The translations under genes and the position numbers were made by a program. A stretch of DNA of 59,521 bases from Oscillospiraceae bacterium (GTDB lineage Bacteria; Bacillota; Clostridia; Oscillospirales; Oscillospiraceae): contig JAAWBF010000015.1 in NCBI GenBank assembly GCA_022792555.1, positions 1-59,521 on the forward strand, read 5' to 3'. Shown here piece by piece: positions 42,372 through 52,579 of this stretch; position 1 is the first letter of the stretch, and each line of letters opens with the position of its first letter. The notes beneath the pieces were generated by a model. That model was not told the DNA's origin and searched no databases. It saw only the letters and a list, made by a program, of their open reading frames with translations.

Positions 42372-42514
42372 GGCTACCACCTCCAGTCTGAAACCATCGG
42401 GAGAAAACACAGGGGAGCGCAGGATGCGGTCCGCCGCGTCCCCTCGCTCCCCATTCGCCCTAGATGCTCCGGCCCAGGGCAAGACCGCACACCGGCCTTT
42501 GAAGTCTGTACTAT

Positions 42515-42785
42515 GTTCGTTACCCAGGCAGCCGGCTCAGGAACGGAAACCCCGCGGCACACGAGGCGTTCCGCTTAGTGCTGCTCGGTTCCCCGCCTGA
42601 CACGGTTCACGGGACCCCGTTGCGCGGGACCATCCCATCATCACTGCTTACCTGGGTCAGACAACACAGTACAAATCCGGGGGCCGGAATTCATCCCTGC
42701 TGTAGCGGGTTGCAGGTTCAGGGCACCGCTATCTCCCCGACTAGTGCGGCCTTGCCGTAGGCCGGATCTCCGCCCGGCGCCTTAG
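42515..42785 (-). ncRNA. ffs: Large signal recognition particle RNA (with Alu domain)
   Basis: On the minus strand the 5' part has the Alu-domain segment GGGGAGATAGCGGTGCCCTG followed by ACCTGCAA and GCTACAGCAGGGATGAATTCC. The S-domain loop GTCAGG..GGGAACC.AGCAGCA lies near 42582-42605, and the 3' strand returns with GAGCCGGCTGCCTGGGT. This is the large Firmicute-type RNA of about 270 nt that binds Ffh. It lies directly upstream of dnaX, the usual neighbour. Ends are approximate, judged from pairing of the terminal helix. Confidence 0.88.
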
Positions 42786-51435: not shown

Positions 51436-51726
51436 ACGCGACACCTCCCAGAATGGCGGAATACGCCTCCCCCTAAGAGATGCCGGAAGGGAACAAAATA
51501 TGTATCATTTTATCCGAATTGATGGGGCAATGCAAGAGACAAAATACACAGATTCTCCCCGCTGTGCGTGTTGCTGTCTCATGAAATGCAGGGGGTATCT
51601 CGCGCTTGGGAGAGCGGAAGGAGGGGTTCCCTCCTGCGGGAGCGCGTTCCTTTCTGTGCGGACAGAAAGGAACCAAAGAACCGCCCAGAGGGGTGTAGCC
51701 CCTCTGGGAACTCCCCCGGCTGAATA

Positions 51727-51893
51727 GCGGCGGTACGATTTAGGTAGTTTGCAAGGATCGGTAATCGTTGCGTGTACTCGTTTCGGTCTTCTGCGTCTCG
51801 GTACACCGCCGCCACTGGGCGGCTCTTGCCAGGTAAAACGTTCCCTTGCAAGCCCTTGAGCCGTTACCATTCAACAGGTGCAGACAATGCCGC
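51727..51893 (+). repeat. Left 167-nt arm of the composite palindrome
   Basis: Begins GCGGCGGTAC and ends ATGCCGC. By hand alignment it matches the reverse complement of 52074-52240 at about 144 of 167 positions with no gap. Conserved blocks include GTTTGCAAGGATCGG, GTGTACTCGTTTCGG and CCGCCACTGGGCGGCTCTTG. Confidence 0.88.
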
Positions 51894-52073
51894 TATCGGT
51901 TCTCAGCATCGAAATTGGTCCTCGGTTCTCGTTAGATGGTATCTCGATGCGGTTCCGTGCTTTTCTCGATGTTTCTAACCCCAAAGCAAGTGGAAACGAA
52001 AGCACAGTAAGTTTACCGATACGGGGAAAAATCTTCCGTGAGCGGAGCAGATGTAAAATGGTTGGCACTGGTG

Positions 52074-52240
52074 GCGGCATTGTCTGCATTTCTTGAATGG
52101 CAGCTGCTTTAGGGCTTGCAAAGAAGCGTTTTACCGGGCAAGAGCCGCCCAGTGGCGGCGGTGTACCGAGACGCTCAAATCCGAAACGAGTACACGCAAC
52201 TGCTGCCGATCCTTGCAAACTGCCTGAACCGTACCGCCGC
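52074..52240 (-). repeat. Right 167-nt arm of the composite palindrome
   Basis: The inverted partner of 51727-51893, of identical length. The differences are scattered substitutions rather than indels. An open frame across this arm on the minus strand (52545 to 51871) is a by-product of the repeat and lacks protein-like character. Confidence 0.88.
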
Positions 52241-52579
52241 CCTTTTGGGGGTCCCCGCCCGCCCTTGGGCGGGTGGGGAGAGGAGGAACAACAAAATGGA
52301 GCGGATGCCCGCCAATAGGCGGGCGTAGCGAAATGAAGTTTGTGACGACGACGTGGGGCTCCCCAGGGGGCGCACCCCCTGGGCCGATTTTTGCCTACTT
52401 TTGCTCGGCGGCAAAAGTAGGTCGCTCCCGCAGGAGCGAAACCCGCCTGCCGTGCCTTGCGGCATCCGTTTTGGTGTGGTACAATAATGACAGGAATACT
52501 TTGACAGAACACCCCATACAAGGTTCCCGCCCCCGGCGGGGGCAAGAACCGGAACCAGATCGAACGGAGGTATCACGCG

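Follow-up and report, generated by a model that had tools for sequence, protein, structure and literature searches.

Quasi-palindromic intergenic element of an Oscillospiraceae genome with structured ends predicted to form triple-helix pseudoknots

What is the quasi-palindromic sequence that separates dapF from an uncharacterised 152-aa ORF in the genome of an Oscillospiraceae bacterium? The stretch of DNA analysed here, called the window, comprises 59,521 nucleotides (positions 1 to 59,521 of contig JAAWBF010000015.1, assembly GCA_022792555.1) and belongs to a 2.75-Mb draft genome of 187 contigs, 85.8% complete. An initial annotation had described a composite palindrome at 51629-52438, made of two long inverted arms framed by mirrored hairpins, and had offered three options for it: a non-autonomous mobile element, a pair of structured RNAs in opposite directions, or a chromosomal recombination or termination site. 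The core of this description held, but the extent had to be enlarged to about 51615-52452 (approximately 838 bp, without assigned strand); these borders are approximate and are taken from an outer inverted repeat of 78 nt (51615-51692 and 52375-52452, 71%) found by a repeat search of the window. dapF is read leftward and the ORF rightward, so that both diverge from the element. Elsewhere in the window, positions 42485-42749 of the minus strand encode an ordinary bacterial large SRP RNA (RF01854, 205.7 bits).

Layout of the window element

Read outward, each end module consists of an inner hairpin C, a strand S1 of 4-6 nt, a linker L1 ending in TTTG, the 12-bp helix S2, its loop, the return strand of S2 and the outermost hairpin A. 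On the left, where the module is read on the minus strand, hairpin C (51684-51708) is followed by S1 (51681-51684, GCGG outward), L1 (51674-51680, TTCTTTG outward, a predicted third strand in which TCTTT mirrors TTTCT of the stem), hairpin B, which corresponds to S2 (51646-51673, 12-bp stem GTTCCTTTCTGT, loop CCGC outward, 74 bits with the covariance model), and hairpin A (51631-51642, CTCC-TGCG-GGAG, read directly). The right module, on the plus strand, is composed of hairpin C (52362-52383), S1 (52383-52387, GCCGA), L1 (52388-52393, TTTTTG, likewise a predicted third strand, mirroring the A/T tract of the stem CTTTTG), hairpin B or S2 (about 52394-52421, stem CCTACTTTTGC / GCAAAAGTAGG, loop TCGGCG, 68.8 bits) and hairpin A (52422-52439, TCGCTCCCGCAGGAGCGA, read directly and from the DNA fold). 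The three hairpins that had been reported outside each arm were located on both sides. Their mirrored order stands, but the layout is not a plain mirror, as a separate repeat of about 110 nt sits between the right arm and hairpin C. The end modules are much more stably folded than dinucleotide shuffles, with z-scores of -4.1 and -5.2 when folded as RNA, and of -6.7 and -6.9 when folded as DNA.

The long arms were confirmed as equal in length and ungapped at 51727-51893 and 52074-52240, with 144 of 167 positions identical (about 86%). The repeat search extended them to 51727-51909 (plus) and 52058-52240 (minus, an inverted copy of the former), i.e. 183 nt with 153 identities (84%), around a central spacer of 148 nt (51910-52057). 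They represent a single locus, unique in the window genome, and only faint relatives were found, all in genome G077; a repeat family was thus ruled out for the arms. The G077 relatives are single (L040, around 630-760; L041, around 580-730), follow a shorter hairpin, TTCTTTGGTTGCAAAGAA, have no partner in mirror orientation, and are perhaps a related half element. Mismatches between the arms are of mixed types (15 transitions, 8 transversions) and look neutral. A coding role was discarded, the mismatches having no codon periodicity and the two arm ORFs tested no Pfam match. The 38-nt perfect run within the arms is marginally surprising (p ~0.04), and neither the single locus nor the mismatch types gave evidence of selected pairing of the arms. 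Interior palindromy is far stronger in this element (score 340) than in other members of the class, although a Caballeronia relative described below has it clearly (score 95); it was rejected as a rule of the class, since many copies elsewhere show little or none of it.

The approximately 110-nt structured repeat (52247-52356, plus strand) is probably nested in the right half. It recurs at another place of the window genome (G000:C2:38170-38275, 87%) and in many family genomes, in each case away from any hairpin B. Further copies were seen in L006, L007, L009, L010, L015, L022, L024, L026 and L027; across copies the hairpin sequence varies with the pairing kept, and the stretches GGGGAGAGGAGGAACAACG, GAGCGGAT and GGAGTTTGTGACGACGA are conserved. 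It was unmatched in Rfam and might constitute a distinct family, of structured RNAs or of repeats.

Neither a promoter-like site nor a gathering-level Rfam match was found in the window element, and a weak P5 match, on inspection, was judged spurious. Used as a query, the whole element had no match among plasmids and one partial match to a phage record, which concerned the 110-nt repeat.

Pairing and covariation in the end module

At both ends of the window element S1 is complementary to the loop of hairpin B (GCGG/CCGC on the left, GCCGA/TCGGC on the right). This pairing makes each end a predicted H-type pseudoknot, of which the middle hairpin B is one helix; together with the base triples proposed below, it gives the ends a richer structure than the hairpins initially seen. 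The pairing was first noticed in aligned copies and then tested. A complement of at least 4 nt was present in 77% of 125 distinct aligned ends, as compared with a mean of 20% in shuffled controls (300 shuffles, maximum 27%), and in 74% versus 19% in a separate extraction of 168 ends. In 33 of 39 genomes half or more of the ends had it, with 43 different loop words in use, and it was absent in about a quarter of ends. The covariance model used to collect and align the ends, called R1, served for that purpose only and encodes neither the S1/loop nor the L1/stem contacts, so that tests of these contacts are not circular.

The linker follows the stem in a second manner: L1 reads as the mirror image of one stem strand (TCTTTG with CTTTCT, CCTTTG with CTTTCC, CTTTTG with CTTTTC, TTTTTG with CTTTTT or CTTTTG). 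In a sample of 125-130 distinct ends from 39 genomes, stem and L1 agreed at the first triple position in 54 C/C and 58 T/T cases with none discordant (112:0; Fisher 3e-33, kinship ignored), and at the next in 13 C/C and 77 T/T cases with one discordant (90:1; Fisher 7e-15, kinship ignored), the pattern having been seen in the same data before it was counted. A minority of ends carry G in the stem at the triple positions, then usually opposite a T of L1. C/C is represented in 23 genomes and T/T in 19; the two states also coexist within single genomes, and the window element itself has both, across its two ends. Such a mirror match is precisely what a pyrimidine third strand in parallel orientation requires, through T-A-T and C+-G-C triples, and we infer from the aligned sequences that L1 may lie as the third strand of a triple helix of this type. 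Template-switch repair of palindromes yields inverted rather than mirror matches, and therefore cannot explain the agreement of L1 with the stem. A three-way covariation of two stem bases with a third strand, in many genomes, represents unusually direct evolutionary evidence for a nucleic-acid triple helix in bacteria.

Stem B was paired in 97.8% of cells (139 distinct ends); changes on both sides number in the hundreds, and changes on one side are nearly absent except at the loop-proximal pair. The proposal that sequence change with kept pairing reflects selection for structure is thus strongly borne out for the hairpins, over many copies, but not for the long arms. G-U pairs amounted to 1.1%, a scarcity which speaks rather for a constraint acting on DNA, or on the two strands alike, with the caveat that triples also bar G-U from the core and that the model collecting the ends favours good stems.

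A second type of end, CCTACTTTTCTTTCAAGAAAAGTAGG, was observed in the closed genome G127 (L139:3392-3417, L141:14061-14086 and L201:178-203). In these ends L1 matches the stem and the S1/loop pairing is not clear; several copies directly abut the stop codon of a gene.

Copies in the family and relatives in other phyla

Following the suggestion to search relatives with a covariance model, the R1 module was recovered from 66 of 150 sampled genomes of the family (44%), often in tens of copies, and covariation could be followed over many of them; among the matches listed, many genomes had at least 37 candidates or came near that number. With a stricter limit, a sample of 348 genomes from the whole phylum gave the module in only 6, one being the window's own. 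Outward-facing pairs of modules frame intergenic elements of 400-900 bp, of which some species have dozens per genome; the window genome, a draft 86% complete, has one. Copies within one genome are about 70-98% alike in alignable stretches, copy number differs greatly between relatives, and element interiors share little between genera. G127 contains 81 full modules, and its 33 neighbouring pairs within 1 kb are outward in 28 cases, tandem in 5 and inward in none. Its elements occupy convergent and co-directional gaps, with 6 of 13 classifiable cases convergent by crude gene calls; a bias in gene orientation was set aside given the few usable cases and these crude calls.

The distribution along the chromosome was considered in view of a site organising the chromosome near the origin, centromere-like or linked to replication. 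In G127, 36 of 52 element clusters fall within 8.7% of the chromosome around dnaA, the boundary of the binomial test having been chosen after seeing the data. Clusters on G127:C1 (L139-L142, L272-L280) crowd no more than some 150 kb from dnaA, and one occupies the dnaA-dnaN gap. G086 follows a milder trend: 8 matches fall on its dnaA contig, against about 1 expected. In G039, a member of the same genus as G127, element-bearing pieces map, as far as they can be mapped, mostly far from the origin on G127; this spread refutes an origin function as a general property, and the dnaA contig of G032 is also without enrichment. An origin-proximal role is therefore extremely improbable, and the clustering is treated as a peculiarity of a single genome; possibly, the origin region of G127 was transferred from an element-rich relative. 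The recombination or termination site initially proposed does not find support as a general function.

Distant relatives were sought on plasmids with an approximate query, which matched Caballeronia, Ilyobacter and others outside the phylum of the window. In Caballeronia plasmid pNK81, modules form mirrored pairs with S1 GCTGC and loop GCAGC, and L1 would make seven triplets (TTTCTTT / AAAGAAA); the elements measure about 616 bp and end in inverted repeats, and the query matches at 24 places of the replicon. Ilyobacter has the module, without an established mirrored partner.

One Caballeronia end (L243) is matched by Rfam family RF02421 with 51.3 bits, against a gathering cut-off of 44; the match takes in the final portion of stem B together with hairpin A and the terminal repeat, all at the element's outer end. 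The same model gave 24.1 bits, below the cut-off, with the Oscillospiraceae copy L052; it had no gathering-level match in the window and none in the window element up to an E-value of 5. RF02421 (Bp1_684, Bp1_Cand684_SIPHT) is a putative Burkholderia sRNA whose founding candidate is listed as verified by RT-PCR, and which its authors had already recorded in several phyla, next to unrelated genes (PMC3521395). The likeness resides in the coverage of the outer Caballeronia end; the difference is that RF02421 is a stand-alone, trans-acting sRNA, described as a family without pseudoknot, triple contacts, mirrored partner end or element.

Mobility, host function and other readings

On balance, the window element is probably one copy of a non-autonomous, MITE-like dispersed class whose ends are defined by structure. 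Its inverted ends, dispersed intergenic copies and patchy distribution make mobility the best supported of the three initial options, and the mirrored modules at both ends, the covariation of S1 with the loop and of L1 with the stem, and the architecture shared with Caballeronia favour its MITE-like character. Once single-stranded, whether in replication, in transposition or as RNA, each end would fold into a pseudoknot, which a trans-acting protein would recognise by shape rather than sequence; ends read in this manner could change their bases as long as the shape is kept. No transposase accompanied these ends among the copies inspected. Target duplications, which had been proposed as a check, were not recognised by eye at the window flanks or at the aligned Caballeronia ends, and the dnaA-dnaN interval of G127 and G039 offered no clean empty site, its sequences being too diverged to read. 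The intact structure of the lone window copy could also denote a host function instead of mobility.

Host usefulness is the substance of the main rival explanation, which we consider rather unlikely: a cis-acting RNA element, in which a crossing transcript would meet a sense pseudoknot at its downstream end. By analogy, the pseudoknot could protect the RNA upstream of it from 3' exonucleases, act as a transcription attenuator or adjust expression of the following gene, and roles of that kind have been proposed for BIME/REP elements. Modules that face outward would work in either direction, hairpin C with the T-rich L1 after it resembles a terminator in scoring (8 sites versus 2.1 in shuffles), the elements lie between genes (in G127, convergent gaps account for 6 of 13 classifiable cases), and even the single window copy has kept its structure. 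However, the genes flanking the window element diverge from it, so that their transcripts miss it, G-U pairs at 1.1% are unusual for a constraint on one RNA strand, and the great differences in copy number between relatives are unlike those of a housekeeping element. Paired sRNA genes, each half encoding an outward-read small RNA that includes the pseudoknot module, are improbable. The opposite structured RNAs of the initial annotation are favoured in so far as the outer end of the Burkholderiales relative is an RF02421 sRNA (51.3 bits in Caballeronia, founding candidate listed as RT-PCR-verified), and are disfavoured by the lack of a promoter-like site in the window element and by interiors little shared between genera; moreover, RF02421 starts inside stem B and so splits the structure in two, and the RT-PCR neither mapped ends nor excluded read-through (PMC3521395).

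Hairpin ends, inverted pairs and high copy number would also suit a REPIN/RAYT- or IS200/IS605-type element that a Y1 (HUH) transposase mobilises by reading hairpins on single-stranded DNA, and Y1 transposase genes are present in G000, G011, G124 and G127. Y1_Tnp had no match in G029, G030, G032, G034, G039, G042, G043, G053, G065, G085, G086 and G144 (drafts, in which absence is not absolute), of which G029, G032, G034, G042, G065 and G086 are examples of element-rich genomes, and the base of the outer stem is variable, without constant tag. As most element-rich genomes tested are without the transposase, this type of mobility is very unlikely. Equally small is the probability of a recent inverted duplication under neutral drift, with template-switch repair keeping the hairpins perfect and no function. 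The arms are unique in the genome with neutral-looking mismatches, and template switching gives Watson-Crick-only stems without selection, so that such an origin is possible for the arms alone; it cannot create the mirror match of L1 with the stem, and the same module recurs in 39 genomes and in another phylum.

Compared with known systems, the mobile MITE-like class resembles MITEs in being short and non-coding, with inverted ends and many intergenic copies (for the class as a whole, the window genome having one), and differs from them in ends conserved in structure instead of sequence, in the lack of recognised target duplications and of a parent transposon among inspected copies. With REP, BIME and REPIN/RAYT systems it shares inverted hairpin pairs, high copy number and intergenic location, whereas it is much longer and has no constant tag: a GTAG/CGTC-type tag beside the hairpin is absent, the outer stem varying between GTTAC, GTTCC, CCTAC, GTGAC and others. 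In the triple-helix pseudoknot of telomerase RNA, a pyrimidine L1 lies in the major groove of S2 and forms U-A-U and C+-G-C triples. The likeness concerns this working of L1 in the groove, as predicted here, and no homology is claimed; the difference is that the present structure recurs in mirrored form as part of a genomic repeat and perhaps acts as DNA.

Bacterial intrastrand triplex motifs were surveyed by Holder et al. (2015), the motif studied being a G/C-rich purine motif of Enterobacteria (PMC4666352). ITxF class IV of that work has the same strand order on one strand (Hoogsteen pyrimidine, pyrimidine, purine) and concerns dispersed bacterial repeats; it differs in having neither a mirrored element nor such a covariation analysis, and the main text does not use the word "pseudoknot" (PMC4666352). 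At the left window end this order reads L1 TCTTT / stem TTTCT / AGAAA, the triplex itself being predicted. Caballeronia, with seven triplets, exceeds the ITxF stem minimum of 6, and the left window end, with five clear ones, falls short of it.

No paper describing the motif sequence or naming the element was found in the open-access literature, and this structured, mobile-looking repeat class is apparently widespread and undescribed. More tentatively, it may be a new class of elements that spans several phyla and relies, for mobility or for a function in the host, on an inverted pair of triple-helix pseudoknots recognised by shape alone, the end sequences being free to change as long as base pairs and base triples co-vary, a proposal that we find plausible without holding it probable. 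If true, the class would tie together an sRNA family, triplex motifs and intergenic repeats, and it raises the question of what reads shape over sequence at these ends, and whether it does so on DNA or on RNA.
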